Below are positions 21,811 to 38,577 of a DNA stretch of 64,000 nt, piece after piece. Location: contig NZ_KB894582.1 of assembly GCF_000374545.1 (NCBI RefSeq), forward strand, positions 124,001-188,000, in the 5' to 3' direction. The translations under genes were made by a program, and so were the position numbers. The notes beneath the pieces were generated by a model. That model was not told where the DNA came from and ran no database searches. It saw only the letters and a program-made list of their open reading frames with translations. Within the stretch, counting starts at the first letter, position 1. Every line of letters starts with the position of its first letter. This DNA is from Anaeromusa acidaminophila DSM 3853 (lineage in GTDB: Bacteria; Bacillota; Negativicutes; Anaeromusales; Anaeromusaceae).

Positions 21811-24108
21811 ATGTTCAAGAAGGCGGTGACATCCAGTTTGGTGGTGCTGGCCATGCTGCCTGTCATGGCTACTGGCGAAGCGGCGACGCCAGGTTCGGCC
21901 ACTGATGCAGCTTCAGCGAAAACTATGGTGCAGCATCAAGCCATCCAAGAAGGAGTAGAGGAAACCCATCAACGAGCGATTGAACTCTCACGAGCTGGGA
22001 AAATGAATGAGGCGTTGGTGTTATTGCAGGAGCTTAGTCAGCGCCAAGGAGTGGGCGATGCTGTTTGGTATGATTATCTGACGGTGCTGCAGTGGTCGGG
22101 AAACAACAAAGCAACCATTGATATCTTTCAGCAGCGGTATAGCGGCAAAGAAGATTCGGTTCCAGGTTTTGTCCTGCGGTCTGTGGGCGGCGCATACTAC
22201 CAACTGGAAGACTTTGAAAAATCCCAGCGTTACTATACCTTGGCGGTGGCTAAAGGCGAGCTGCCTTCGCGGCTGCAGTTGGCGGAAGCCGCTATGCGCG
22301 CAGGAGATACGGCTACAGGACAGGCTATGTATGGAACGCTATTAAAAGAGTCGCCTGATAATGGTGCGCTGTACTTAAGTCGCTCTAACATGGCCTTATA
22401 TCGCAAGGATTTTTTGCAATCGCAGGCGGATTATCGCAAAGCGTTGGAGCTTTTAGCAGGAGAAGGGAATTTTGAAAAGAAGCGAGACTTTGATTCCGAA
22501 CGGGCGGCTATTTTAATACGGACTGATGAATTGCAGCAAGCTATTTTGCTCTTGCAGCCGTATATGAGCGGGGCAAAAAGCAATAAGCGGATGGAATGTG
22601 ATTACATTCTAGCGTTGCGCCTAAAAGGAGACTATAAACAGGCCATTAGTGAAGGAACGCGGCTGTGGCCGGACTTGGGGGATGTTCCTACGTATGGACT
22701 GCAGGCATTGGGGGATGCCTACCTTCGTTTGGGACAGTTCGAAAAAGCGGATGCGGTATATGCCACGCTATTGAAAAGGGAACCCACGAGGGTTGCGGCG
22801 TATTTAGGCCGGGCTTACGGAATGACTGCTAGGGGGCGTGTCAGCGACGGAGCGGCGTTGTATCGGCAGACCTATGCGCTAGATGCGGCTGCGTCGTCGA
22901 GGATCATCGCTGCGGATGCCAACAGCTTCTTTACGGAAGGTCGCTATGCGGCAGGCAAAGCTTTGTATGAGCTGCTTTTGGAGTTGGAACCGGATAAGGC
23001 CAGCCATTATCGCGAGTATGGCAATAATTTAGCGAGGACGGAGATGCCTCGCGAAGCGTACGGCGTTTTTCGGCGCTTAGCGTCTTTGCCGGAAGGCGAA
23101 CTGTACGGCTTGTCTGGAGAAGTAAAGGCGGCCGTGGCTGCCGGTGACTATCAGTCTGCGCAAAAAGCGTTGATGCAGTTGCAGGAACGGTATGCGCGTC
23201 ATTCTTTGACAGCGGAGGCGATAAACGTATATGAGACCCGGAAAATTGGCGAAGCTACTACCGGATTTACCGCTTTTTCGGATTACAAGGGGAATGACAG
23301 GCGGATCTGGGACCATTCGGGTTCTCATGCATTAGGGGGGAGCAATTGGGATGTTCTTTGGGCTGCCGGCTTTGAACGTGTTGCCGACGATGTTGATGTC
23401 AGCCGGATTAACACACAGAGCGTTGGCTTAGGATATCGCGATCGTTGGTGGTCTACTCGCTTATGGGGTTCCAGCTTTACTGGCGAGGGCAATAGCATGA
23501 ACGGGTTGCGCTGGGAGAGTACGCTTTATTTTCGGGATTATACCTACATGACTTTTGCGGTAGGAAGGCGACCCTTGATGGATGCGCAAGCATGGCGTAA
23601 CGGAGCGATGGGCGACTCTTTCCGTTCGGTTTCGTTTACCCATCGCGTAGGCGCTAGGGATACTTATACCGCAGGCTATGAATGGAGTAATTATACGGAT
23701 AGTAACCGTTACAGCGCTCTTACTCTAGACTTTACACATAATGTATATGCTACAGACAAGAAGACGCTCAGCTGGTTTTTATTCTTCAATCGTTCCCGCT
23801 ACAACTTTGAATCGGATTTGTACGAATCGCCAGCAGCTCGCGTAGGTTATGGCGGCGGCGTCTTCCAACGGTGGGAAATTCCCAAGGGATATTGGGCGCT
23901 GACGTCAGCACTGGGATGGGGCTATGATAAGCCGGATCCGATCGATTTTGCACCCTATTTTCGCTTGGAATACGGTCATGATTTTTCTGCTCAACATTCT
24001 TTGGTTATTGGTTTTGAGTATGGCTTCCGTTCCAACCGAGCTCGTAATGTTCGGGACTCTATTTTCAGCTATCGGCAGTTTGATATTCGTTACAATGTGC
24101 TGTGGTGA
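21811..24108 (+). CDS. pgaA: PgaA-like outer-membrane exporter of poly-N-acetylglucosamine
   Basis: This 765-residue protein has a signal peptide (about 1-25, ending GEAA), a TPR-rich region (about 50-470; repeats include ALVLLQELSQRQG and LYLSRSNMALYRKDFLQSQ), then about 260 residues rich in alternating aromatic and polar positions that end RYNVLW. That end, with a terminal aromatic residue, is typical of outer-membrane barrels. The layout and length match PgaA (about 800 residues), which binds deacetylated PNAG in the periplasm and exports it. It is first in pgaABCD, 12 nt before pgaB. Its presence implies an outer membrane. Confidence 0.88.
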   Translation: MFKKAVTSSLVVLAMLPVMATGEAATPGSATDAASAKTMVQHQAIQEGVEETHQRAIELSRAGKMNEALVLLQELSQRQGVGDAVWYDYLTVLQWSGNNKATIDIFQQRYSGKEDSVPGFVLRSVGGAYYQLEDFEKSQRYYTLAVAKGELPSRLQLAEAAMRAGDTATGQAMYGTLLKESPDNGALYLSRSNMALYRKDFLQSQADYRKALELLAGEGNFEKKRDFDSERAAILIRTDELQQAILLLQPYMSGAKSNKRMECDYILALRLKGDYKQAISEGTRLWPDLGDVPTYGLQALGDAYLRLGQFEKADAVYATLLKREPTRVAAYLGRAYGMTARGRVSDGAALYRQTYALDAAASSRIIAADANSFFTEGRYAAGKALYELLLELEPDKASHYREYGNNLARTEMPREAYGVFRRLASLPEGELYGLSGEVKAAVAAGDYQSAQKALMQLQERYARHSLTAEAINVYETRKIGEATTGFTAFSDYKGNDRRIWDHSGSHALGGSNWDVLWAAGFERVADDVDVSRINTQSVGLGYRDRWWSTRLWGSSFTGEGNSMNGLRWESTLYFRDYTYMTFAVGRRPLMDAQAWRNGAMGDSFRSVSFTHRVGARDTYTAGYEWSNYTDSNRYSALTLDFTHNVYATDKKTLSWFLFFNRSRYNFESDLYESPAARVGYGGGVFQRWEIPKGYWALTSALGWGYDKPDPIDFAPYFRLEYGHDFSAQHSLVIGFEYGFRSNRARNVRDSIFSYRQFDIRYNVLW

Positions 24109-24120
24109 GGAGGGTTTGGC

Positions 24121-26049
24121 ATGAGGTGCAAGGAACATAGCTTGATTTGGTTGTGCTCGTTGCTGTTGACAGCAGTTCTATGGGGCGGTTGGCTTCCGGA
24201 ATGTGCGGCGGCCGAAGGGACTGTATCGATCCTTTGTTACCACGATGTGGGAAATCCTAATCAGCCTGGAGTGGGTGCGAACCCATGGACGGTGACTGAG
24301 AATACGCTGGAAAGTCATTTTAAATATCTAAAAGACAACGGATACACAGTGATCAAAGCGGAAGACTATATTGCCTTTGCCAAGGGGGAGCGGCCGGTCC
24401 CGCCCAAAGCAGTATTGTTGACTTTTGATGACGGATATAGCTCTTTTTACGAAAAAGTCTATCCACTGTTGAAACGCTATAACTATTCTGCAGTGCTTTC
24501 CGTGGTGATAAGCTGGCTCGACGCTAAAGCGCCAGATGAAGTAGGTAAGCTGGTTTCCTGGCAGCAGCTTAAGGAGATGCAGGACAGCGGCGTTGTGGAA
24601 GTGGCTTCCCATTCCTATGACTTGCATCGCTGGGGCATTGCCAATCCCCAGGGAGACGGAGCGATTGTCGCGGAAAACCGACTTTTTGACGGTAAGAATT
24701 ATGAGAGTGAAGGCGCCTATCGGAGTCGTCTTCAGTATGATTTTGATCAAGCGCAGAAGGTGCTGACTCGTGAGTTGGGGCATCCGGCTCGGATCATGGT
24801 CTGGCCATATGGCGGTTATAGTGCGCAGGCGTTAGAGGTTGCCAAGGACGCAGGCTTCACGGTGACCTTGGGACTGGGCGGAGGAAAGAATCAGATGGGG
24901 GAAAATGCTTTGTTTCAAGGGAAGAGAGGCATTATCTATGGAAACCCCTCTGTATCGGAGTTCGCAAAATTTTTACAGAACAGCCTTCTGGATTGGCGGC
25001 AACGTCCTTTGCGTATGGCGCAGGTAGATCTCGACCAGATTTATGACAAAGATGTTCGGCAGATGGAAGAGAATCTGCGGCAGCTAATCGAACGGCTGAC
25101 CGCATCGGATGCCAATTGCGTAGCGCTTCAGGCTTTTGCCGATCCTAAGGGAGATGGCGTTTTAGAGAAGGTGTACTTTGCCACCAAGCATGCTCCGGTA
25201 GAAGCGGATGTGTTTAATCATGTGGCAGGACGTCTTTCGGGGGCTGGTTTTCGCGTTTTCGCCTGGTTTCCGACTTTGGGCGGTCAATGGCTTTTGACAG
25301 GACATTCGGAAGAGGCAGTGAAGGCTAGCGAGGCGGAAAAAGCTGGCTGGTATCAGCGAGCTACCCCCTTTAGCTCTCGCGTGCGCGAGCATATCCGGGC
25401 GTTAGCGAATGATCTTGCGGCGCAGAATCGAATTGACGGCATTTTGTTGCAAGATGATCTGTATTTAAATGATTTTGAGGACTTTTCGCCAGCGGCGCAG
25501 GCTGCCTATCAACGTGAATTCGGTCGGGCGCTGACGCCGGATGTGCGCAAGGATGCAGCGCGTATGGCGGAATGGAGTTCTTGGAAGACACGGGAGCTGG
25601 AGGCGGTGGCGCACGAAGTTATTGCCGAAGTACGTAAGCATCGTCCAGAAGCTTTGTCGCTGCGCAATATTTATGCAGAGCCCGTGCTGAATCCCGCATC
25701 GGAAGAATGGTTCGGCCAAAATTATGCGCACTATTTGCAGCAGTATGACGTTACGGTGCTTATGGCCTATCCGTTTATGGAAAAACAGGGCAAGGATCCG
25801 GAAGGTTGGCTGCGTAAACTGACTGCAGCAGCCTTGCAGCAACCAAAGAGCGAGAGTAAAGTTCTCTTCAAATTGCAAACGTATGATTGGGCTGGTAAAC
25901 GTTGGTTGAGTCGCCAAGAACAGCTGAAACAAGTAGCGGCGCTGCGCGCGGGCGGAGCGCGGCATATGGGGTATTACCCGGAAGGAGTATTTGATTCTCG
26001 GGCTACGCTCTTTAAAGGTGAAGGACGGGAGGTGTATGATCAGCCATGA
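24121..26049 (+). CDS. pgaB: PgaB-like poly-GlcNAc deacetylase/glycoside hydrolase
   Basis: This 642-residue exported protein has a signal peptide (about 1-30). The N-terminal NodB-type deacetylase (about 35-290) has SILCYHDVG, LLTFDDGYSSFY and the metal site SHSYDLH. The C-terminal glycosidase-like domain (about 300-642) has DGILLQDDLYLNDFEDFS, matching PgaB's second domain. In PNAG systems this protein partly deacetylates the polymer in the periplasm, which export requires, and cleaves it. Its length fits E. coli PgaB (about 670). It overlaps pgaC by 4 nt. Confidence 0.9.
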   Translation: MRCKEHSLIWLCSLLLTAVLWGGWLPECAAAEGTVSILCYHDVGNPNQPGVGANPWTVTENTLESHFKYLKDNGYTVIKAEDYIAFAKGERPVPPKAVLLTFDDGYSSFYEKVYPLLKRYNYSAVLSVVISWLDAKAPDEVGKLVSWQQLKEMQDSGVVEVASHSYDLHRWGIANPQGDGAIVAENRLFDGKNYESEGAYRSRLQYDFDQAQKVLTRELGHPARIMVWPYGGYSAQALEVAKDAGFTVTLGLGGGKNQMGENALFQGKRGIIYGNPSVSEFAKFLQNSLLDWRQRPLRMAQVDLDQIYDKDVRQMEENLRQLIERLTASDANCVALQAFADPKGDGVLEKVYFATKHAPVEADVFNHVAGRLSGAGFRVFAWFPTLGGQWLLTGHSEEAVKASEAEKAGWYQRATPFSSRVREHIRALANDLAAQNRIDGILLQDDLYLNDFEDFSPAAQAAYQREFGRALTPDVRKDAARMAEWSSWKTRELEAVAHEVIAEVRKHRPEALSLRNIYAEPVLNPASEEWFGQNYAHYLQQYDVTVLMAYPFMEKQGKDPEGWLRKLTAAALQQPKSESKVLFKLQTYDWAGKRWLSRQEQLKQVAALRAGGARHMGYYPEGVFDSRATLFKGEGREVYDQP

Positions 26050-27311
26050 CTTTATTAGAAATGTTTGGCGCATATATCTTCTATTACCCGATTATTATGA
26101 GTCTCATCTGGATGATCGGGGGCATTTACTATCATTTTCGCTATGAACGCAACCAATCGGACTATCCGGCGCTGACTGCGCACCCGTTAATGTCTGTGCT
26201 GATTCCAGCGAGGAATGAGGCAGGGAATATCCGGGAAACGGTGGAGGCGGTTCTAAATAGCGCATACCCGAACTATGAAGTGATTGTCATTAATGATGCC
26301 AGCACGGATGAGACAGAAGCGATCGTACGGCAGTTGGTAGCGGAACACCAACAGGTACGGATGCTTAATCTGACTGTCAATCAGGGGAAAGCGACAGCTC
26401 TCAATTATGGTTTTTTGATGAGCAAAGGCGAGATTATTGTGACCGTAGACGCTGATTGCATGTTGGATACGCGGGCGCTTCACTGGATGGCCTGGCATTT
26501 TATCAACTTTCCCCGCGTTGGCGCTCTTACCGGCAATCCAAGGGTGCGCAACCGCACGACGCTGTTGGCGCAGATTCAGACGGCGGAATACGCCAGCGTA
26601 ATCGGTCTGATCAAACGGACGCAGAGGGTGTTGGGCAAGGTGCTCACCGTGTCCGGAGTTATCGCCGCCTGGCGGCGTCAGGCTCTTTTGGATGTGGGGC
26701 TTTGGAGCAATGATATGATTACCGATGATATTGATATGACCTGGAAAATGGAAAAACGCTTTTGGGATGTGCGCTATGAAACCAAGGCGATTGGCTGGAT
26801 GCTGGTGCCTGAGACCCTGTGGGGTCTTTGGCGGCAGCGCTGCCGCTGGGCCCAGGGAGGCGTAGAAGTTATTCGCCGACATCGCAACGTTTGGAGTGAC
26901 TGGCGGCAGCGGCGTATTTGGCCGCTGTATATTGACTATGTTCTCAGTATTATTTGGGCCCATATTTTCCTGCTTTGTATGATCTTTTGGAGCTATGGGT
27001 GGCTTAGCGGCGATTGGTTTCTCATTGCTCAGCTAGGAAACCCCGTTGCTCTGTGGAATGGTTCGGTGATTGCGTTGGTATGTATGCTGCAATTTGCCGT
27101 GAGCTTGCTGGTGGATAACAAATATGATAAGCATCTTTGGCTTACGTATTTTTGGGTTATTTGGTATCCTGTCATCTATTGGGTTTTCAATGCCATGACG
27201 GTGTTGGTGGCCACGCCTCGGGGTCTCACCAAAAAATTTGGGAAAGCGGCGACCTGGGCTAGTCCGGATCGCGGTCTAAGGGCGGTGACGCATGATGCGC
27301 AGCAAAAATGA
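26046..27311 (+). CDS. pgaC: PgaC-like poly-beta-1,6-GlcNAc synthase (GT2)
   Basis: This 421-residue inner-membrane glycosyltransferase has an N-terminal TM (about 8-28), a GT2 domain with LIPARNEAGN, VDADC (DxD), TDDIDMTW and QRCRW (the QxxRW motif), and C-terminal TM segments (about 300-390). It polymerises UDP-GlcNAc and passes the chain through the membrane together with PgaD. It is coupled to pgaB by an ATGA overlap and overlaps pgaD by 20 nt. Confidence 0.94.
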   Translation: MTLLEMFGAYIFYYPIIMSLIWMIGGIYYHFRYERNQSDYPALTAHPLMSVLIPARNEAGNIRETVEAVLNSAYPNYEVIVINDASTDETEAIVRQLVAEHQQVRMLNLTVNQGKATALNYGFLMSKGEIIVTVDADCMLDTRALHWMAWHFINFPRVGALTGNPRVRNRTTLLAQIQTAEYASVIGLIKRTQRVLGKVLTVSGVIAAWRRQALLDVGLWSNDMITDDIDMTWKMEKRFWDVRYETKAIGWMLVPETLWGLWRQRCRWAQGGVEVIRRHRNVWSDWRQRRIWPLYIDYVLSIIWAHIFLLCMIFWSYGWLSGDWFLIAQLGNPVALWNGSVIALVCMLQFAVSLLVDNKYDKHLWLTYFWVIWYPVIYWVFNAMTVLVATPRGLTKKFGKAATWASPDRGLRAVTHDAQQK

Positions 27312-27801
27312 GCTTCCCATCATCTTTGTGCCTCAATTGGAACCGAAGGGGCAGCGGACGCTAGAAGGAATGCTGAAATTTATCCTGACCGTTATTTTCA
27401 TCTTGATTTTAGCGGTTCTTACGCTTGCGCTGTGGATTGCTTCCGGATTTCATGTGCAGGAGCAGGTTTTGGCGGACGCCTATATCAAGAGGTCCTGGGG
27501 GATGTTGTTTACAGTGGGGTGGGTTGCCTTAGCGGCGTTTCTGATTATGCTGGTTTGGCAGCAATACAATCTGCGTGTTTTTGGCAAACGAACGAGGCGG
27601 CAGTTTCCACCGCCTGTAGGTCCTGCGGAAGTGGCAAGGATGCTGCAAATTTCGGAGGAAACCGTGATTCATGCGCAAGAGCTGCGTATTGGAGTGTTTC
27701 ATGTAGAAGACGGCAAGCGAATATTGTGCGATGATGAATTTGTGTGCACGTCCTTAGAGAGTGTGACTACTATGGAAGAACCGAAAAAAAGCGGCGAATA
27801 G
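27292..27801 (+). CDS. pgaD: PgaD-like PNAG synthase accessory protein
   Basis: This 169-residue protein has two TM helices (about 30-52 and 68-90), then QQYNLRVFGKRTRRQ and a cytoplasmic region with EVARMLQISEETVIHAQELR. This matches the layout of PgaD, the partner that stabilises and regulates PgaC, in some species through shared c-di-GMP binding. It closes the pga operon; its stop codon lies within the terminator hairpin. Confidence 0.82.
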   Translation: MMRSKNELPIIFVPQLEPKGQRTLEGMLKFILTVIFILILAVLTLALWIASGFHVQEQVLADAYIKRSWGMLFTVGWVALAAFLIMLVWQQYNLRVFGKRTRRQFPPPVGPAEVARMLQISEETVIHAQELRIGVFHVEDGKRILCDDEFVCTSLESVTTMEEPKKSGE

Positions 27802-28033: not shown

Positions 28034-28069
28034 GCTGAAATGGTGCTTGTAACGAGAGGATGGGATCGT

Positions 28070-29056
28070 TTGAAGAAAAAGACAGGATTGGCGTTATGCT
28101 TGGCAATGATTTTTTTGTTAAGTTTTGCGACGTATGGAGAAGTGAAAGATCACTCACAGAGTTTGTCGCCTCGGCAGGAAATGATTAAGCTTGTTCAGGA
28201 ACTGCGGCAGTATGCGCGGGCGCAGAAAAGCGATTTTGTGTGTATTGGCAATAATGGCTTAGAATTGATGATGGAAAAGGACGAATTGGTTTCTGAAAAT
28301 GAGCTTTCGGGCATGCTGGCAGGTTTTGACGGTATGTTGCTGGAGTCCTTTTTTTATGGTTCGGATATGGAAAGCAACAAGAGAACGCCGCTGGAGCATC
28401 GTATGTACTTGATGGATGCGCTTAAACGTTTCCAAGGAGCGGGCAAGCCGGTTTTCAACATTGAATATGCGAATGACCCTGAGATTATGGGAAGCGCTTA
28501 TCGCCAAAGTCAGCGTGCCGGGCTGATTCCTCTTGCTGCGGATCGGAGAGAATTGAACAATATTCCTCAATATCCCGCTACCGTTTGGGAAGAAAACGCA
28601 TCGCCGATTACCAAGCTGGGGGAGGCGCGCAATTTCCTGGCATTATTTAATCCAGATCGATTTGAAACAAAAGAAGAATATTTACAGGCTTTAGAACGTT
28701 CGCGCTATGATGTATTGATTATAGATGCTGAATATCAGGGGGAATGGCTGGAGCCGGCAGATGTAGCCCGCCTTCAGCGCAAGCCAAACGGCGTTAGACG
28801 CTTAGTGCTTTCCTATTTTAGTATCGGAGAAGCGGAATCATACCGTGCCTATTGGAAGGAAGAATGGAATAAAAAGCCGCCAGCTTGGATTGTGGAGCTT
28901 AACCAAGATTGGGAGCACAATTATCGTGTAAAGTACTGGGCTCCAGAATGGAAGCAGATTTTATACGGAAGTCCGTCAGCGCAGTTGGATCGTATTTTGC
29001 AGGCAGGCTTTGACGGCGTCTTTTTGGATGTAGTAGATGTATATCAATATTTGTAA
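28070..29056 (+). CDS. exported TM1410/GH114-type glycosidase of the pel-like operon
   Basis: This 328-residue protein has an N-terminal signal peptide. The start is TTG at 28070, 8 nt after GAGAGGA. It resembles the TM1410/endo-polygalactosaminidase-like TIM barrels: FVCIGNNGLELM, FDGMLLESFFYG, DVLIIDAEYQGEWLEP, RRLVLSYFSIGEAESYR and the end GFDGVFLDVVDVY. In P. aeruginosa PelA a glycosidase domain of this kind is fused to the deacetylase; here it is a separate first gene, and the deacetylase lies at 32026. It probably trims Pel-like polymer outside the cytoplasm (inference). Confidence 0.8.
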   Translation: MKKKTGLALCLAMIFLLSFATYGEVKDHSQSLSPRQEMIKLVQELRQYARAQKSDFVCIGNNGLELMMEKDELVSENELSGMLAGFDGMLLESFFYGSDMESNKRTPLEHRMYLMDALKRFQGAGKPVFNIEYANDPEIMGSAYRQSQRAGLIPLAADRRELNNIPQYPATVWEENASPITKLGEARNFLALFNPDRFETKEEYLQALERSRYDVLIIDAEYQGEWLEPADVARLQRKPNGVRRLVLSYFSIGEAESYRAYWKEEWNKKPPAWIVELNQDWEHNYRVKYWAPEWKQILYGSPSAQLDRILQAGFDGVFLDVVDVYQYL

Positions 29057-29080: not shown

Positions 29081-31147
29081 GTGAAGGTTTTAGTAGTAGG
29101 GAAGCAAGACGTAGTAATTGATTCGTTACTGGTTCGCTTGCGAAAAGAAGGCAACGAGGTATCTTGGAGTCCATTAGAAAGCAACCTAAGCTACGGGGGG
29201 GCTTGCAACCTGGAAGCGCTGCTGGCGCTGCATAAGCCGGAGTGTTTAATATATCGGCCCTTTGGGGACGGGAATTTACAGGGGCTGGAGGGGGAAAATG
29301 CGGTAAGTTTGCTGGGGCAATTGCTTTTGTACGCTGAGAGACAAGGCGTATCGCGTTTTTTCTTGCTTTCTTCTTCACGGATCTTTGGGGTTGCAGGAAA
29401 ACGTCTTTGGGAGTCATCGCAAGTCGTATGCCCCGAAGGAGACCAAGCGGCTGTTCTTTCAGCGATGGAGCGCTTGCTTCTATGTTGGCCAAAGGAAAAA
29501 GGGCTAAACACCTGCGTTGTTAGAATCCCGCTGGTATATGGAGAGGCGCAGAGTATAGAGGAGAAAGCATTATTCTTGCGGCGGCTTCAAGCGGCAAGAA
29601 AGACAACGACTGTAGTGGGCGGCGATTATTTGCACGCAGGCGACGCGGCAGACGGGATAGAACGTCTTTTGCGAAGCGCCCAAGATCTGCATATTGTACA
29701 TTTGGCTGCAGTAGAGCCTGTGTCGATAGAGCTGGTGATGAAATGTCTTAATGCAACCCCGTGGCCGGAAATAGAGAAGGAAGAGATAGTAGGCTGGCCT
29801 TCTTTGGCAGTGTCGGAAGAGGTCGAAGCATTGCAAACGTGGCGACCGCGTTATTCCCTGAAAAGTGATTTAAGCGAGTGGAGCATACCAGGAGCCGAGG
29901 CGTCGCGCAATAGGGGCGCGGGATCTTGGCGGAGCTGGCTGGCACAAAAAAAGCCGTACTTAGAAAACGCTACTTTGTTCGCTTTGCTGGCGGCATTCAG
30001 CTTTGCTAATTCGTTTGGCGGTTTGATTGATTTGCGCTTGGGTGTAGATTATAACTTTCTTTATATTGCCCTTATGGGGCTTTTGTACGGGAAAAAGCAA
30101 GCTTTGCCGGCGGGAGCCTTGGCTGCGGCCTTATTCATATTTCATTTGCAGTTGCGCGGGATGGACGTATTAACGGGTTTATACCAAATGGAGTATTTAG
30201 TGCATCTGACATTGTATTTGCTGGTAGCGATTGTGACAGGTTATGTTACTGATAACGCCAAGCGTCTTACGGAAGACCAAACTTTGACGATGCAAAATCT
30301 GCAACATCGCTATGAAGATTTACGCAATCTTTATGGAGAAAGCCTGCGCCTTAAGGATAGTTTAGCAGCGCGTATCGTTAATGCCAATGACAGCCTAAAT
30401 CAGATTTATGACGTGGTTCGCAGTTTGGACAGTGTACGTCATGAAGAAGTGTACACAGAAGCAGTAGAGGTAGTGGGACGTATTTTACAGATACCGGCTG
30501 TTGCTCTATATACAGTAAATGCCGAAAGCACCTATTTGCGGTTGCGTGTGAGAAGCCATGCTTGCGCGCAGTCTATAAAAAACTCTCTTCGTATTACGGA
30601 CATGCCTCATTGCAAGACCTTAATGGAGGAACGGCAAGTTTGCGTTAACCGGCAGCCTGCTGAAGGGGAACCGGTTTTTGCGGCGCCTATTTCGTACCAT
30701 GGACGCGTGGTGGCGGTATTGCATTTATACGGGGCGACGTTTGAAAAAATGTCATATTATCATGCGGATTTACTGCGTGTAGTGGCGTTGATGGTTTCGG
30801 ATGTTCTTGGACGCGCCTATGAATATGACCAACTGCAGCAAGATCAGCGCTATATTGAGGGAACCAGCATGCTTCAAGCGGAAGAGTTTGAAAAGGTGAA
30901 AGAGGAAATGCAGAATCGCCAGGAACGGTTTCTGCAGGACTATGCGCTGTTGGTGTTGTCTGGGGAGACGGAGCTGGAAAAACTTTGTAAGAAAGTATCG
31001 GCGTTGATACGTGCAGAGGACTATCTAGGGGTTGGACGAGACGGATCGGTGCAGTTGCTGCTGCCCAATACCTCCGCGGGCATGGCGGCGCAAGTTATGG
31101 ACAGACTTCGAGATGCGGGCTTTGTGGTTGAAGAAAGGGTGGCGTAA
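29081..31147 (+). CDS. pelD: PelD-like c-di-GMP receptor with extra degenerate SDR domain
   Basis: This 688-residue protein starts at GTG after AGGAGGTG. The N-terminal part (about 1-270) looks like an NAD-dependent epimerase/SDR fold (FFLLSSSRIFG, VVRIPLVYGE, YLHAGDAADGI), but the glycine-rich loop is altered and the YxxxK site is missing. About four TM helices (about 290-395), a GAF domain (about 430-570) and a degenerate GGDEF domain follow. In the last, RAEDYLGVGRDGSVQLLLP has RDGSV in place of GGDEF and RAED exactly five residues before it, the position of an RxxD I-site. PelD binds c-di-GMP and activates Pel synthesis in the inner membrane. The SDR extension is not part of standard PelD as I know it. 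Confidence 0.85.
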   Translation: MKVLVVGKQDVVIDSLLVRLRKEGNEVSWSPLESNLSYGGACNLEALLALHKPECLIYRPFGDGNLQGLEGENAVSLLGQLLLYAERQGVSRFFLLSSSRIFGVAGKRLWESSQVVCPEGDQAAVLSAMERLLLCWPKEKGLNTCVVRIPLVYGEAQSIEEKALFLRRLQAARKTTTVVGGDYLHAGDAADGIERLLRSAQDLHIVHLAAVEPVSIELVMKCLNATPWPEIEKEEIVGWPSLAVSEEVEALQTWRPRYSLKSDLSEWSIPGAEASRNRGAGSWRSWLAQKKPYLENATLFALLAAFSFANSFGGLIDLRLGVDYNFLYIALMGLLYGKKQALPAGALAAALFIFHLQLRGMDVLTGLYQMEYLVHLTLYLLVAIVTGYVTDNAKRLTEDQTLTMQNLQHRYEDLRNLYGESLRLKDSLAARIVNANDSLNQIYDVVRSLDSVRHEEVYTEAVEVVGRILQIPAVALYTVNAESTYLRLRVRSHACAQSIKNSLRITDMPHCKTLMEERQVCVNRQPAEGEPVFAAPISYHGRVVAVLHLYGATFEKMSYYHADLLRVVALMVSDVLGRAYEYDQLQQDQRYIEGTSMLQAEEFEKVKEEMQNRQERFLQDYALLVLSGETELEKLCKKVSALIRAEDYLGVGRDGSVQLLLPNTSAGMAAQVMDRLRDAGFVVEERVA

Positions 31148-31148
31148 T

Positions 31149-32036
31149 ATGACACTGGCAGCATGGTTGAGCGGACAAGCCTTATTGGCAGGAGGGTATT
31201 CGGTAGGAGCTAAGCTCATGCGCGGGGAACGAAGAGCTTGGGTACAGGGCTTGCTGATTTTGCTCTTGCCGGTATGGGGCTTGGTTTTAGTGGCGCTTTT
31301 GCATGGAAAAAAAAGCGGTAGCGACGAGCTGCCTGATTTATATGCAGGCTTTCGGAAACAGGTGCGCACTTTGCGGCGGCCAAGTCAAGAAGAATATCAG
31401 TTAATGCCTGTGGTCGATGTGCTGAAAGTGCAAAATTCCCGTGCGAAGCGGGGGTTAGTGGGGCATGCGGTACAAAAAGGATTGCTGCATAGCGCGCCGG
31501 TCTTGTCGGCGGCTGTTCGCGACTCCGATCAGGAGGTGGCCCATTACGCAGTGTCGGTATTGACTCATCGGCAAGCTCAAGTGGAACGCCAGCTTCGGCG
31601 AGCTAAAGACGGCATGAATATTGATGCGGATGCAGGTGCGGAGTGGGCGTTGCGGTATGTTGACTTAGCGGCTGAATACCGTCGAATTGCAGTGCTGGAT
31701 GAAAATGCGCAACATATTTTCTTTCGCGAGTACCTGGGTGTGTTGGAACAGGTGTTGGCTCAAAAGAAAGAAGTTTGGTATTTCGAAGAAGCAATGGATG
31801 TTTTGGAAGCGATGGGAGATGTGCCAGGGGCCTTGGCAATAGGGACAGAGTTTCAAGAAACCTTTCCTAGCCGCGAAGAGCCGTATTTTCGTCTGTTGTC
31901 CTTGCAGCATCAACAAGGACGGTACCAGGAGTTGCAAGAGACTCTAGAACGGATGAAAAAGCAGATTCCGCTCTTTTCGAAAGAAGCAGTTCGAGTGATC
32001 CGGTTTTGGCAGGGAGATGCTTCCTATGCATCATAA
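31149..32036 (+). CDS. pelE: PelE-like membrane/TPR protein
   Basis: This 295-residue protein begins with two hydrophobic segments (about 5-20 and 30-50). A long helical soluble part follows, with TPR-like pairs such as YFEEAMDVLEAMGDVPGALA and FRLLSLQHQQGRYQELQETL. PelE has this layout and forms the inner-membrane synthase complex with PelD, PelF and PelG. The ATG at 31149 begins one base after the pelD stop. It overlaps the next gene by 11 nt. Confidence 0.8.
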   Translation: MTLAAWLSGQALLAGGYSVGAKLMRGERRAWVQGLLILLLPVWGLVLVALLHGKKSGSDELPDLYAGFRKQVRTLRRPSQEEYQLMPVVDVLKVQNSRAKRGLVGHAVQKGLLHSAPVLSAAVRDSDQEVAHYAVSVLTHRQAQVERQLRRAKDGMNIDADAGAEWALRYVDLAAEYRRIAVLDENAQHIFFREYLGVLEQVLAQKKEVWYFEEAMDVLEAMGDVPGALAIGTEFQETFPSREEPYFRLLSLQHQQGRYQELQETLERMKKQIPLFSKEAVRVIRFWQGDASYAS

Positions 32037-33858
32037 GAGTATTTATTTTGTATTAGGATTAGTGTTGTTTTTAGGATTGCTTTTTCAATATAATCGGCAA
32101 GATGGTTTTTTGCACTTGTTGAAAAATACTAACGATCTAGTTTTAAGGCCGGTGCAGGATGCCCCGGCAGATGTTAAAAATCTGGCGGAAGAAACCTTGC
32201 TGCTTGTGTACGACCCGTTGGATGGCGATAGCTTGCGTATTCGGGCGAACGTGGAACGGACACTTCGTTACATGCATAAAGCCGTACGGCCGGTGTCGGT
32301 GCAGGGAGCAAGTTCTTTCGAAGGCTATAGCGGTGTAATTGTAACGGCTTCACGGTTAGATCGGATTGTCGGCAGCGCTGCTTTGCGGCAATATGTACAG
32401 CAAGGAGGCTCGTTATACGTCCTTGCAAGTCCGGCGCTGGAAGCGGTTTCGCCGGAATGGGCTGAACTGCTTGGTTGGCAGAGTGTTGATGAACAAGAAT
32501 CTTCTTATGGTCTGAAGATGGAAAGCGATCTGCTTTTGGGAGCGAAGGGGTTGGAGCTGTCGGAGGATGATATGGTCAACTCCTCGCTGCACGGTGAACT
32601 TCGCTCTGGAGTCAAAGTTCACGCCAAGTCCCAAGATGAAGTACCGCTATTATGGGAACATCCTTACGGGCAGGGACGCGTAGCGGTATGTAACGGCAAT
32701 CTTTTAAGCAGCAAGGAAAATCGCGGCGTTATTGCCGGCCTTCTCTCACTGGGCAAGGAGCCTTTCTTGTATCCAGTGGCGGGAATTCGTATGGTACATA
32801 TTGATGATTTTCCTGCGCCAGTACCGAATGAAAAGCATGAAAAAATTTATCAGGAATACCGCTTGGAAATGCCTGACTTTTATCGTCAAATTTGGTGGCC
32901 GGATATGCTAAAAGCGGCAGAACGCTATGATATCAAATATACTGGACTAATTATCGAATCCTATAATAAGCAAATCTCTGGGCCATTTTCGCCGGAAAAA
33001 GGCGATGGGGCTACGCGGAATAACCTGGTTATCTACGGGCGCGAATTGTTGCGTCATGGCGGTGAATTGGGGATTCATGGCTACAACCACCAGCCGCTGG
33101 TGTTAAGCCACCAGCAAAAACATATGCGCGGTTTTTATGAGACCTGGCCTGGGCAAGAGCCTATGGCTGAAAGCCTGCGCGAGTTGAAACGCTATGTGGC
33201 GGAAGCGTATCCAGATTATCAGTTGCGCGTCTATGTGCCGCCGTCCAATATTTTGGGGCCTGAAGGAAGAGCGGCGGTGAAAGAAGTCTTTCCTGATTTG
33301 CATATTGTTGCAGCTATTTTTTCAGCCTCGGATGACCCTGAGGCTGCGGATAGCTATTTGCAAGAATTTGAACGAGGACCGGACGGTATTTTGAACATGC
33401 CTCGCATCAGTGCGGATTATGTAGTTCCGGATTATAACCGCTGGAGTCTCATTAACGCCATCAATTATTTGGGGATTTTTTCGCACTTTATTCATCCAGA
33501 CAATATTTATTATGAAGAAAACGGCCAAAGAAGCTGGCGGGAGATGTATGAGGGCCTGGACGGCTTGTTGCGCATGGTGCATGATCAATATGGCTGGTTG
33601 CGCAGTTGTACGATGTCCCAGGGGGGAGAGCTGGTCGATGATTACCTGAATCTCAACTATCGCGTACAGCGCGAACCGGAGAGAATTCGACTGCATGCCT
33701 GGGGCTTTCGTCAAGATGCATTCTTTGTGCTGCGCAGTCGGCAAAACGTGAAATACGCAGAGGGAGCCCAGGTGCAAAAAATCGGTGACCAAGCATATCT
33801 GGTTAAGCTGCAGCGTCCTGAAGCGCTTATTTATCTTGCGGCGGAGGCAACACAATGA
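32026..33858 (+). CDS. pelA: PelA-like polysaccharide deacetylase (DUF2194 type)
   Basis: This 610-residue protein has an N-terminal signal anchor (about 4-22). It has a flavodoxin-like region (about 45-240, GGSLYVLASPALEAV) and a deacetylase domain (about 250-540) with VHIDDFPAPVP, ELGIHGYNH and HFIHPDN supplying the Asp-His-His metal site, then a beta-rich end. In Pel systems the deacetylase part of PelA partly deacetylates the GalNAc-rich polymer. Here the glycosidase part is a separate gene (28070). The ATG at 32026 is preferred over 32017, as GGGAG lies at the right distance. It overlaps pelF by 4 nt. Confidence 0.85.
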   Translation: MHHKSIYFVLGLVLFLGLLFQYNRQDGFLHLLKNTNDLVLRPVQDAPADVKNLAEETLLLVYDPLDGDSLRIRANVERTLRYMHKAVRPVSVQGASSFEGYSGVIVTASRLDRIVGSAALRQYVQQGGSLYVLASPALEAVSPEWAELLGWQSVDEQESSYGLKMESDLLLGAKGLELSEDDMVNSSLHGELRSGVKVHAKSQDEVPLLWEHPYGQGRVAVCNGNLLSSKENRGVIAGLLSLGKEPFLYPVAGIRMVHIDDFPAPVPNEKHEKIYQEYRLEMPDFYRQIWWPDMLKAAERYDIKYTGLIIESYNKQISGPFSPEKGDGATRNNLVIYGRELLRHGGELGIHGYNHQPLVLSHQQKHMRGFYETWPGQEPMAESLRELKRYVAEAYPDYQLRVYVPPSNILGPEGRAAVKEVFPDLHIVAAIFSASDDPEAADSYLQEFERGPDGILNMPRISADYVVPDYNRWSLINAINYLGIFSHFIHPDNIYYEENGQRSWREMYEGLDGLLRMVHDQYGWLRSCTMSQGGELVDDYLNLNYRVQREPERIRLHAWGFRQDAFFVLRSRQNVKYAEGAQVQKIGDQAYLVKLQRPEALIYLAAEATQ

Positions 33859-35291
33859 AGATTTGTATGGTTGTGGAAGGCAGCTATCCCTATGTAACTG
33901 GTGGTGTATCCTCCTGGTTGCAAATGTTGATTAGCTTGATGCCGGAACATGAGTTTATCGTTTATTCCGTTGCTGCGGAAGAAAAACAGCGTGGCTGTTT
34001 CAAATATGAAATTCCTGAAAATGTGATTGAGGTAAAAGAAGTCTTTTTGGACAGCATTTTGCATCAGTCTGTACAAGGCTTGGGAAAATGTGAATTGAGC
34101 CCGCAGGAAGCGGCAGCCTTTGAAGCATTGATTTGCGGTGAGAGAAATGTGCGGCTTCAAGAACTTCTTCCTCTTTTTCAGAGTGGGCGAGCTGGGAAAA
34201 AACGCAGCGGCATGGCGATGAATATTTTCATGAGTTTTTCTTTTTTTGACGTCGTGCAGCGCGCGTATCAACGCCAGTTTGGTCATCTCCCGTTTACGGA
34301 TTTCTTTTGGACCGTTCGTTCCATGCTGCTGCCCTTGCTCTATCTGCTAGAGCAGGATCTGCCGGAAGCGGATGTGTATCATAGTGTGGCGGCCGGTTAT
34401 GCAGGCGTGATTGCTATGGCGGGAGCGGCGCAGCACAAGAAACCTTTTTTGCTGACAGAGCATGGCATCTATGCAAGGGAACGCGAAGAGGAGATCATTC
34501 AAAGCTCTTGGGCGGGGGATGATTTTAAAGGACTTTGGATTAATTACTTTTACAGCTTGGCTAAACTATCATATCAAGAAGCCTCCAAGGTATTGACTCT
34601 ATTCCGGCAAAATGCGGAAATGGAAGCCTATTTAGGCTGTGATCCGGCTAAGATTGAAGTTGTTCCTAATGGCGTAAATGCGTCTCGCTTTGCGGGGACT
34701 CCTGGCAAAAGAGGTGATGGGCGGACGGTAGGAGCGATTGTCAGGGTAGTGCCGATTAAAGATATTATGACCATGCTGCGAGCCTTTGCTCTTGTGCGGA
34801 CAGAGTGCCCGGAAAGTCGCTTTTTTATCATCGGACCTATTGATGAGAACGAAGAGTATTTTGAAGAATGTCAAAATCTAGCGGACTCTCTCGGCTTGAG
34901 TGATGTGGTATTTACAGGAACTGTCGATGTGCGTGAATACTTGCCGAAGTTGGACTTGTTGATGCTTACCAGTATTAGTGAAGGCCAGCCGCTGGCCTTA
35001 TTGGAAGGCATGGCGGCCGGCAAGCCCTTTGTTTGTACCGATGTCGGCGCGTGCCGCGAACTTCTTTTGGGCGAAGACGGCTTTGGTCCGGCAGGGTATG
35101 TTGTGCCAATGTTGGATGCGCCCGCGTTGGCGCAGGGCGTAGTGAAGCTTTTGAGAGACCCGAAGCTGCGTGAAGAAATGGGAGAAAATGGGCGGCGGCG
35201 TGTTGGGGAACAATATACGCGCCAGCGTTTTATTGATCGATACCGTCAGGTGTATGAGGAGGTGGCAAGCGATGGCAGGAATCGGCTTTGA
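33855..35291 (+). CDS. pelF: PelF-like GT4 glycosyltransferase
   Basis: This 478-residue cytoplasmic glycosyltransferase starts KICMVVEGSYPYVTGGVSSW, the PelF hallmark. GT4 features are TEHGIYARERE, VVPNGVNASRF, DVVFTGTVDVREYLPKLDLL and the nucleotide-sugar site TSISEGQPLALLEGMAAGKP (E-x7-E). PelF polymerises Pel from UDP-sugar, mainly UDP-GalNAc. It is coupled to the gene before (ATGA) and overlaps pelG by 20 nt. Confidence 0.95.
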   Translation: MKICMVVEGSYPYVTGGVSSWLQMLISLMPEHEFIVYSVAAEEKQRGCFKYEIPENVIEVKEVFLDSILHQSVQGLGKCELSPQEAAAFEALICGERNVRLQELLPLFQSGRAGKKRSGMAMNIFMSFSFFDVVQRAYQRQFGHLPFTDFFWTVRSMLLPLLYLLEQDLPEADVYHSVAAGYAGVIAMAGAAQHKKPFLLTEHGIYAREREEEIIQSSWAGDDFKGLWINYFYSLAKLSYQEASKVLTLFRQNAEMEAYLGCDPAKIEVVPNGVNASRFAGTPGKRGDGRTVGAIVRVVPIKDIMTMLRAFALVRTECPESRFFIIGPIDENEEYFEECQNLADSLGLSDVVFTGTVDVREYLPKLDLLMLTSISEGQPLALLEGMAAGKPFVCTDVGACRELLLGEDGFGPAGYVVPMLDAPALAQGVVKLLRDPKLREEMGENGRRRVGEQYTRQRFIDRYRQVYEEVASDGRNRL

Positions 35292-38200
35292 GCTGAAAAA
35301 GCTGTTTAAAGACAAGAGCGCCTTCGGGTATGCGAAAGCCTATGCATATACGGCGGTAGTGACGGTAGGTCCGTTTTTGCTGGCTGTGCTGCTGCTGTTG
35401 GTGTTGCAGCTGCTGCTGAAGGAAGGCGAAGTTCCCTACGCGTTTCGCATGGTATACCAGTGCTCTATTGTGTATGCGTTGGTTTTTTCACAAATTCTTT
35501 CCAGTGGCTTTTCTATGATAATTACCCGTTTTGTAGCGGATCAGCTGTATGCGGGACAGGAGGAATATATTCTGCCCTCCCTGCACTGTATGGTGGTAGT
35601 GGCATTGGCTTGCGGAGCGCCAGTGGCTATTTTGTTCCTATGGTCGTCGCCGCTGGATTTTCTTTTGAAAGCGTTGACTTATGTGCTGTATTTGACAATG
35701 ATCGTGATTTGGATTCAAGCGGTGTATTTATCAGCGCTCAAGGATTATCGCAAGATTCTGCTGGCCTACGCCATAGGAGTAGGAATAGCAATTTTGGCGG
35801 GAGTAGTTGTTGTTTGGCAGGGAGCATATTTAGTGGAAGGGATGCTAGGGGCCGCTTGTATGGGGGTTGGTGTCATCGCTATGATCCTGCAATGGCAGCT
35901 ACAACGCTTTTTCCCTTGGCGGGCCCAGCAAGTCAGTTATCGTCAAATTATGGCGGCTTGGCTCGATTATAAGGAATTGTTTGGTGTGAACTTTTTTTAT
36001 ACACTAGGATTATTTTTGCCTAATTTCTTGTTTTGGTTTGGCCGGGATTCCCAACTGATTGCCTGGACGTATCGCGTGGCGCCGGAATACGATATGGCGA
36101 CCTTTTTTGCTTTGCTGACAGTGCTGCCGGCAATGATTATGTTTGTAGTTGCTACAGAACTTTCTTTTTATGATAAATATATTGTGTATTTTCAACGTAT
36201 CGTGGGCAAAGGCAATTTTCAGGAGATTAGTGAAGCCCGCAAAGACATGTTACAGGTTCTTTGGTCGGAATTGCGTCACCTGATGGAATTTCAACTTTGC
36301 TTTTCGCTCTTATTTTTAGCGTTGGGAAGTTATTGGCTTCCCAAGGTGGGCGGAAGCTATCGTGTGATTGAAATTTACACGATTTTAGTATTGGCGGCGT
36401 ATTGCATTTCCATGATGCAAAGCGTTTTGATTTTACTTTTGTATTTTGAAGACCGCCGCGGCGCCCTATTGGTGACTTCGCTGTTTGCGGCAGGGTCCTT
36501 TATTTTCAATCTTTTATCGGTACTGGGTGACGCCAGCGGCAATACGGATGGCTTTGGCGTATTTGCCGCAGCATTTGCAGCTCTTGTATATGCTTTGCGG
36601 CGATTGCGTTACTATACAGACCGTATTGATTATTTTGTGTTTTGCACGCAACCGGTTTTACAAGGGCATGAACGAGGAGGCTGGCTTCGAAATTGGCTTT
36701 TGCGGCGCAGCGTAGCGGCGGCCCTTGCGGTTTTTGTCGCAGGTTACGCGTCTCCTCTTTGGGCGGGGGCGGCGCAGATCGAAGAAGAAAGTCAGCAACA
36801 GCATCAGACCTTAAAAAATGACGCCTTGCGCTTGGCGGAGATAAAACAGCTTCGTAAAGAGCTTGTGGAAGTGAAAGAAGAACTGAAAAGCGCCGAAGCA
36901 ATGATGCGTGAAGCGCAGGACCAAATTGCGCAGGCGGAAAAACAAAAAGGCGATGTGTTGCAGCGGCAGGAAGCGCTGCGTCTACAAATGAAGGAAGCTG
37001 AACGGCAGTGGCCGGAGCTTAAAGAGCAGCTGAAACATGCTCAAGAACGTTTGCATCAACTGCGTCAGGAAGAAGCGGCCCTTCAAGAACAGGCTGAGAA
37101 TGCAAGGCAGCGAGGCGAGCAAGCGCAAGCTTCCGTGGAAGCCATAGAGGCGCGGGCGCTTCAACAAGGAAGCCTTGATCAGTTAAAAGAAGAGGAGTTG
37201 GAACGGCTGGCGGCGGCAGCGGATGCTTTGAATGAACGGTTGGAAGGCGCTTATGCAGCGGCGGAGACATTACAGGCGGAAGCGGATGCCTTGGATCAGT
37301 CGTTAGAAGCCTTCCAGGCTCGAATCGAGGCGGCGGAGGCCAGAGAAAATCATTGGCAAGAACAAGTTCAGAAGATGCAGGATCATTGGCAAGAGGCGCG
37401 CGATGGTTTGCAAGATGCTCTAAAGGAAGAGCAAGAAACCAAAAACGATCTCGCAGAGGCGCACTCTTTCTTGAAAGAAGCGACAACTTCTAAAACAGAG
37501 CTTCAACAATATGAAAAAGAAGTTGTCAAGCAGCTGCAAGGACCTCCGCCGGTTCGGGAAGGTTCTTTGGAGCAGCGGTATTATAGCTGGTCTGGTAACG
37601 GGAGTAGCGGCTATCAATGGTTGAAGAGCGGTACGGTAGCGTACAACGATAAAGAGGTAGAAGCCAGCTTGCGCCTGCAGCATGTGAATGCACAAGCTAC
37701 GGTTAACGGCGCTAAGGGCTATTTGGCCGGCTGGATGGATACGCAGTTGGCGGTGACGCGGACAAAAGAGGATAAGACGCATATATGGCGCTATGGGGTG
37801 GACGTGAATTTGCCTACTGGCATGACGCGGCTTTCCTCTGCCGCAAGGCAGGCTCAAGTAGACGATGACTTAGTGGAAACCGATGTGTTTGGCGAAGGCT
37901 GGAATTGGACGCCAAGAGTGGAATGGAGTTATAAAAAAGGAGAGCAGGATCTCTGGACTCTGGGGACAAGTTACGGCTTCCGAGGCAGTTATGTCCGGTA
38001 TAGCTCTGGGACGGCAGACGATATGGCTAGCTATTCTCCGGGCAATGAATGGAGCCGCTATCTTCGGTGGAGACACCTGGGAGAAAAACATCGCATTGAA
38101 TGGGAAGCGTCGAACTCGGTTTATAGTGATGCAACGTTAAATGGAGCAGCATGGTATCGTTCGGGAAATGCTTGGGACGTACGAGGTTCCTATGCGAAAA

Positions 38201-38577
38201 CATTGACGCCAGACTCTGAATTACAGGTATATATACGTCAGCATTGGGATGCGGCGGAGCGTTCCTACCAGGGAGAAGACCTTGGGGGCGGGCAAAAGCG
38301 TCGTTATGCAGGGGTTGCCTTGGAAAGAGAAATTAAGCCAGGGCGTTTATTGCGTTTTTCGTTAGATGGCATGTGGGCAGATGGAAACTTGTTGGATCCA
38401 AAGACTGATTTGCTTAAAAGCAAGCGTCAGCGCTATTCGGTAGGCATCGGCTACGAGATTACGCTGGCGAAAGAGAGACGGCTCTATTGGGATCTACGCT
38501 GGTTCCGGTTGCATCAAGATGAGGCGGCAAGTTATCATGGCTATCAGCTTTCGTGCGGCTTTTTCCAATCTATGTAG
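35272..38577 (+). CDS. pelG: PelG fused to a coiled coil and predicted outer-membrane beta-barrel
   Basis: The ATG at 35272 starts AGIGFELKKLFKDKSAFGYA, the PelG hallmark, inside the end of pelF. Residues 1-462 form a polytopic membrane protein of normal PelG length (MOP/flippase-like, the Pel synthase membrane subunit). The frame continues without a stop. Residues about 477-500 are RRSVAAALAVFVAGYASPLWAGA in character: two Arg, a hydrophobic core, then an AxA-like cleavage site, so a signal peptide or extra TM. About 501-762 is a long Glu/Gln/Ala-rich coiled coil. About 764-1101 has alternating aromatic/polar strands (YGVDVNLPTGM, WTLGTSYGFRGSYVRY, WDLRWFRLH) and ends GYQLSCGFFQSM, like an outer-membrane barrel. 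GAGGAGG (36674-36680) with TTG 19 nt later hints at possible internal initiation. The barrel may replace PelB/PelC. The fusion itself is seen directly; its role is inferred. Confidence 0.88.
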   Translation: MAGIGFELKKLFKDKSAFGYAKAYAYTAVVTVGPFLLAVLLLLVLQLLLKEGEVPYAFRMVYQCSIVYALVFSQILSSGFSMIITRFVADQLYAGQEEYILPSLHCMVVVALACGAPVAILFLWSSPLDFLLKALTYVLYLTMIVIWIQAVYLSALKDYRKILLAYAIGVGIAILAGVVVVWQGAYLVEGMLGAACMGVGVIAMILQWQLQRFFPWRAQQVSYRQIMAAWLDYKELFGVNFFYTLGLFLPNFLFWFGRDSQLIAWTYRVAPEYDMATFFALLTVLPAMIMFVVATELSFYDKYIVYFQRIVGKGNFQEISEARKDMLQVLWSELRHLMEFQLCFSLLFLALGSYWLPKVGGSYRVIEIYTILVLAAYCISMMQSVLILLLYFEDRRGALLVTSLFAAGSFIFNLLSVLGDASGNTDGFGVFAAAFAALVYALRRLRYYTDRIDYFVFCTQPVLQGHERGGWLRNWLLRRSVAAALAVFVAGYASPLWAGAAQIEEESQQQHQTLKNDALRLAEIKQLRKELVEVKEELKSAEAMMREAQDQIAQAEKQKGDVLQRQEALRLQMKEAERQWPELKEQLKHAQERLHQLRQEEAALQEQAENARQRGEQAQASVEAIEARALQQGSLDQLKEEELERLAAAADALNERLEGAYAAAETLQAEADALDQSLEAFQARIEAAEARENHWQEQVQKMQDHWQEARDGLQDALKEEQETKNDLAEAHSFLKEATTSKTELQQYEKEVVKQLQGPPPVREGSLEQRYYSWSGNGSSGYQWLKSGTVAYNDKEVEASLRLQHVNAQATVNGAKGYLAGWMDTQLAVTRTKEDKTHIWRYGVDVNLPTGMTRLSSAARQAQVDDDLVETDVFGEGWNWTPRVEWSYKKGEQDLWTLGTSYGFRGSYVRYSSGTADDMASYSPGNEWSRYLRWRHLGEKHRIEWEASNSVYSDATLNGAAWYRSGNAWDVRGSYAKTLTPDSELQVYIRQHWDAAERSYQGEDLGGGQKRRYAGVALEREIKPGRLLRFSLDGMWADGNLLDPKTDLLKSKRQRYSVGIGYEITLAKERRLYWDLRWFRLHQDEAASYHGYQLSCGFFQSM

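Follow-up and report, generated by a model that had tools for sequence, protein, structure and literature searches.

An open reading frame of Anaeromusa acidaminophila joins PelG to a predicted coiled-coil and outer-membrane barrel protein of a candidate exopolysaccharide exporter family

The analysed window, a stretch of 64,000 nucleotides from the genome of Anaeromusa acidaminophila DSM 3853 (contig NZ_KB894582.1, positions 124,001 to 188,000), carries a pel operon with the gene order GH114 hydrolase, PelD-like, PelE-like, DUF2194, PelF and PelG, the last of these being fused to a further segment. The genes preceding the fusion are:

28040..29056, + strand: GH114-type glycoside hydrolase, PelA-hydrolase-like (PF03537, E 4.1e-21)
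29081..31147, + strand: PelD-like protein with an epimerase-like N-terminus and a GAF domain (family scan)
31032..32036, + strand: pelE-like gene by position, overlapping the upstream ORF, with an uncertain true start and no significant family match
32017..33858, + strand: DUF2194 protein (PF09960, E 1.5e-125), in the slot of the PelA deacetylase in Gram-positive pel operons
33855..35291, + strand: pelF, coding for a GT4 glycosyltransferase and overlapping the pelG start (NCBIfam PelF equivalog, 366 bits, cut-off 100)

No TPR gene was recognised in this pel operon, and no pelC was recognised among the window's pel genes by a scan that contained no PelC model. Directly upstream lies a pgaABCD-type operon (21811-27801), in which a TPR-barrel PgaA-like gene (21811-24108) is found together with those for PgaB, PgaC and PgaD.

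The pelG frame (35272-38577, + strand) is free of stops over 1101 codons and is present as such in the assembly. Its residues 1-457 belong to the PelG family by a full-length match to the Pfam profile PF16933 (profile positions 1-452 of 452, E 6.9e-124), so that both the ORF and the profile agree with the original prediction of an uninterrupted 1101-codon frame opening with PelG; the tail of the fusion has no Pfam match above the cut-off. The following features can be distinguished within it:

35272..36660, + strand: PelG part, residues 1-463, up to the conserved YFVFCTQPVL motif (Pfam; motif common to relatives)
36661..36711, + strand: junction, with the PelG C-terminal segment QGHERGGWLRNWLLRRS continuous with the signal segment (by-eye comparison with the PelG tails of relatives)
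36674..36680, + strand: Shine-Dalgarno-like GAGGAGG, spaced 12 nt from the out-of-frame TTG 36693 and 19 nt from the in-frame TTG 36700
36698..36701, + strand: TTTT run that decides the in-frame fusion (in silico removal of one T)
36700..36771, + strand: internal signal-like segment, residues 477-500, in which AGA|AQ, with its break behind residue 500, may be a signal peptidase I site (hydropathy, alignment)
36760..37164, + strand: first long helix of the coiled coil, residues 497-631 (AlphaFold2; 3.50 periodicity)
37192..37536, + strand: second long helix of the coiled coil, residues 641-755 (AlphaFold2)
37552..38574, + strand: predicted C-terminal 16-strand barrel with a PTG motif, residues 761-1101 (AlphaFold2; Foldseek; VIA-align; alignment)

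The signal-like segment, RRSVAAALAVFVAGYASPLWAGA (residues 478-500), has a hydropathy peak at residues 481-499 preceded by a K/R-rich stretch, aligns with the signal peptides of unfused relatives, and ends in an AGA that directly precedes AQIEEE. It is followed by a region (residues 501-757) with a sharp periodicity peak at 3.50, in which E, A, Q and L are the commonest residues and a single proline occurs. The AlphaFold2 model of the tail, computed from input alignments of three sequences and with a mean pLDDT of 71 over the complete tail and of 75 for the barrel by itself, comprises two helices and then 16 main strands that run up to the C-terminus. The second Arg-Arg/hydrophobic/AxA segment, the Glu/Gln/Ala coiled coil and the barrel-like C-terminus that had been proposed from the sequence were all recovered in this way, the last as a 16-strand outer-membrane barrel by structure prediction only. 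The layout of the two modelled helices suggests a hairpin with its N-terminus at the barrel end; the stretch between them differs in length across the family alignment, and a hairpin-tip motif is found in only 9 of 36 homologues.

In Foldseek searches against the PDB, PelB (9h80_M, PelBC complex) ranked second for the whole tail (1.8e-11) and third for the barrel, and one or both of these searches also listed BcsC, AlgE and the polysaccharide outer-membrane secretin 4y25, which we take to be PgaA. As the top matches in VIA-align (Z up to 21.9) are porins and two-partner secretion barrels, the fold indicates an outer-membrane barrel and not a function. At the sequence level, no similarity between the barrel and PelB was detectable, a barrel-only profile found no match among the PDB sequences, and the full-tail profile recovered generic coiled coils only. 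The Pfam Phenol_MetA_deg model matched one of 20 family members (2.9e-5), the tail in the window itself being without a match. The fused barrel terminates in Met (CGFFQSM, 38574), as does the homologue at locus L087, with most other homologues ending in Phe, Leu, Tyr, Ile or Trp.

Among characterised systems, PelB of Pseudomonas aeruginosa shares with the tail a place in a pel operon, a periplasmic helical region and a C-terminal 16-strand barrel, the latter being present in the tail by prediction only; unlike PelB, the tail is devoid of TPRs, of detectable sequence similarity and of a recognised pelC in its operon, and its gene lies directly after pelG or is fused to it. Since profile scans found no TPR scaffold in the tail or its relatives, we do not file it as PelB, though it may work like PelB. 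PelB, BcsC and PgaA have been described as 16-stranded barrels (PMC12141448), and the tail resembles BcsC and PgaA in its slot after the synthase genes and in its predicted barrel but has a coiled coil instead of TPRs; given the pga-type TPR-barrel gene upstream of the pel operon, both exporter designs appear side by side in this cell. A coiled coil ahead of the barrel and a PTG motif (noted in FapF/COG4313 proteins, PMC5557850) are shared with FapF and the COG4313/Phenol_MetA_deg proteins, which are also represented among the Foldseek matches (5o65 and 4rl8). In contrast to these, the tail has 16 predicted strands rather than 12 and a much longer coiled coil, and it is encoded in a polysaccharide operon as against the amyloid operon of FapF; its barrel may be distantly related to the FapF/COG4313 barrels.

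In a class-wide search of 380 Negativicutes genomes, in which PelG was counted when above the cut-off or in part, PelG was found in 59 genomes, the tail in 63, and both in 55 as against 9.8 expected (hypergeometric 1.6e-52, uncorrected for shared ancestry). In 52 genomes pelG is followed within 3 kb by a tail gene of the same orientation, many of the junctions being 4-nt overlaps or short gaps. Only in this genome does a PelG match occupy an open frame of more than 564 residues, and hence the fusion is a single case and a separate gene after pelG the rule. The original prediction held that a single product may serve both membranes in this diderm Firmicute; as a mode of these bacteria in general this found no support, as every other genome having both encodes PelG and the barrel in two genes, an arrangement that had been named beforehand as refuting, and no second instance of the fusion turned up among the 380. 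The fusion in this genome stands all the same. Tail homologues with named hosts do come from Negativicutes, in keeping with the proposed diderm setting. A scan of genome contigs with the whole fusion as query gave no match and one with the barrel alignment only three loci, including those of Massilibacillus and Selenomonas artemidis, with no named second fusion; scans of viral contigs gave no match. Phylum-wide matches outside the class were weak and touched the profile only over its coiled coil; they were rejected as low-complexity.

Homologues located away from pelG mostly adjoin other exopolysaccharide synthases. A paralogue of the tail in this same genome (28% identity) precedes genes for PilZ-containing GT2, MBOAT, ALGX-like and GH5 proteins; at L085 the tail gene follows genes for a GT2 and BcsB, i.e., it occupies the BcsC position; at L087 a GT2 and a weak deacetylase match, and at L088 a GT2, are found near the homologue. 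No recognised synthase adjoins the homologue of a Massilibacillus MAG (L084/L104). A predicted barrel encoded beside a polysaccharide synthase is thus the usual pattern, and a shared role in the export of synthase-made polysaccharides is the best reading of the neighbourhoods. Taking sequence, context and predicted fold together, we find the tail most fittingly described as a putative TPR-free exopolysaccharide exporter in the PelB/BcsC slot, with the coiled coil replacing the TPRs; we infer this role by guilt by association, the fold matches including ordinary porins. The outer-membrane step for Pel, which the earlier proposal assigned to the fused protein, remains plausible for the tail.

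We accordingly interpret the ORF as two pel-operon genes that are normally separate and adjacent, namely pelG and a gene for a secreted coiled-coil/barrel protein, and regard this explanation as a whole as moderately probable. Under it, a one-base frame change within the few codons where pelG met the barrel gene would have joined the two in frame. PelG would sit in the inner membrane such that its C-terminus faces the cytoplasm, a placement suggested by the K/R-rich stretch ahead of the signal segment, and the former signal peptide would act as an internal signal sending the tail to the periplasm, where signal peptidase I would probably cut after AGA (residue 500) and free the barrel for outer-membrane assembly. 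Several homologues, probably from Selenomonadaceae (L096, L072, L091, L092, L094 and L103), carry long Arg-rich N-terminal extensions before the signal segment, often with repeated RMSRKR-like units, and a cytoplasmic chain ahead of the signal thus seems tolerated. In the outer membrane, the downstream barrel protein would most likely carry Pel across in Negativicutes, with the coiled coil possibly guiding the polymer in place of the PelB TPR scaffold.

Whether the fusion is genuine turns on the junction. In relatives, PelG extends 17-44 residues beyond YFVFCTQPVL before its stop, and Shine-Dalgarno-like sites occur at or near the pelG stop. Removal in silico of one T from the TTTT run causes PelG to stop at TAG 36713 after 480 residues, with a 17-residue tail following the motif (the low end of the range in relatives), and brings into the barrel frame a second TTG (36693), in a different frame from the fusion and absent from the original prediction, which reads MALRRSVAAALAVFVAGYASPLWAGAAQ and has GAGGAGG 12 nt upstream. 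The fused and the ordinary arrangement are thus a single base apart, whether that base changed in nature or through a sequencing error; the fusion is a species-level event resting on one base, a dependence that the original prediction does not mention. A sequencing or assembly error, with a true genome one T shorter and the two genes separate and overlapping as in relatives, would explain these features along with the absence of the fusion from every other genome; it is nonetheless unlikely, for four T make only a short run, and gene junctions are where indels surviving selection concentrate. Moreover, all of 192 orthologues (74,870 residues) shared with the congener G002 were covered in one frame with 0 frameshifts, two apparent cases having been rejected as over-extended ORFs in G002, and by our own estimate indel errors can thus be no more frequent than roughly 1e-5 per base, on which ground we clearly prefer a real fusion to an error. 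The junction was also proposed to allow internal initiation at the in-frame TTG 36700, giving a free barrel precursor alongside the fusion. The GAGGAGG was indeed found 19 nt upstream, and the product would open with MRRS..., as is normal for a signal peptide; yet this spacing is poor, TTG, the sole in-frame start, is a weak start codon, and a purine-rich site closer to it is absent, making such initiation very improbable.

For a genuine fusion, we consider it more probable that the product is cut at the internal signal than that it spans the envelope uncut, with PelG staying attached to the coiled coil and barrel and bridging both membranes. There is a parallel for such a bridge in the proposal that PelB spans both membranes via an uncleaved N-terminal helix (PMC12141448), and with 1.5 A per residue the two helices would extend over about 17-20 nm. 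However, the AGA site is present, and the hairpin suggested by the two-helix layout would, if formed, put the N-terminus at the outer-membrane end, unreachable for PelG; the bridge is the weaker option for this reason, and we judge it very improbable. For the cleaved form, AcsAB offers a precedent in that a fused exopolysaccharide synthase is made and then proteolysed (PMC4877109); both cases involve fused synthase subunits, but AcsA and AcsB are both synthase components, neither being in the outer membrane, and cleavage is established there and predicted here. FbcH, considered as another precedent, was set aside, no paper on it having been found. A different challenge concerns the tail itself, which could serve Negativicutes generally as a porin or as an envelope tether and sit in polysaccharide operons by chance. 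Like OmpM of diderm Firmicutes (PMC10628300), it comes from the same bacterial class and combines a coiled-coil stalk with a barrel; the porins and two-partner secretion barrels heading the VIA-align matches and the synthase-free L104 neighbourhood are in line with such a role. Against it, no SLH domain was matched in the tail or its relatives, in contrast to OmpM, and the tail is operon-bound, with linkage to several exopolysaccharide synthase systems; we therefore hold this alternative to be distinctly unlikely.

The exporter family is of greater interest than the fusion. It is conserved and apparently undescribed, likely consisting of sugar exporters, and Negativicutes are not mentioned in the searched text of two papers describing Gram-positive pel operons. 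For the passage of Pel through the outer membrane of diderm Firmicutes, where PelB and PelC are lacking, the conserved gene that follows pelG offers a direct candidate; it occurs with several synthase systems and has a predicted 16-strand barrel as in PelB, BcsC and PgaA, minus the TPR scaffold. In the fusion, nature itself gives a hint of joint action between PelG and the exporter. More tentatively, and with somewhat less than even confidence, we propose that one TPR-free family of coiled coil plus 16-strand barrel exports Pel, cellulose-like and other synthase-made polysaccharides in Negativicutes, here as a PelG polyprotein in a fixed 1:1 ratio; if true, this polyprotein would tie inner-membrane translocation to outer-membrane export at that ratio.

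Two further loci may be mentioned. The operon of this genome's paralogue (L064:1794-10701), with its PilZ-GT2, MBOAT, ALGX-like and GH5 genes, is suggestive of an acetylated cellulose-like polymer, and a region of a Xanthobacteraceae MAG (L106:8001-8687) matches a portion of the barrel at 26% in tblastn.
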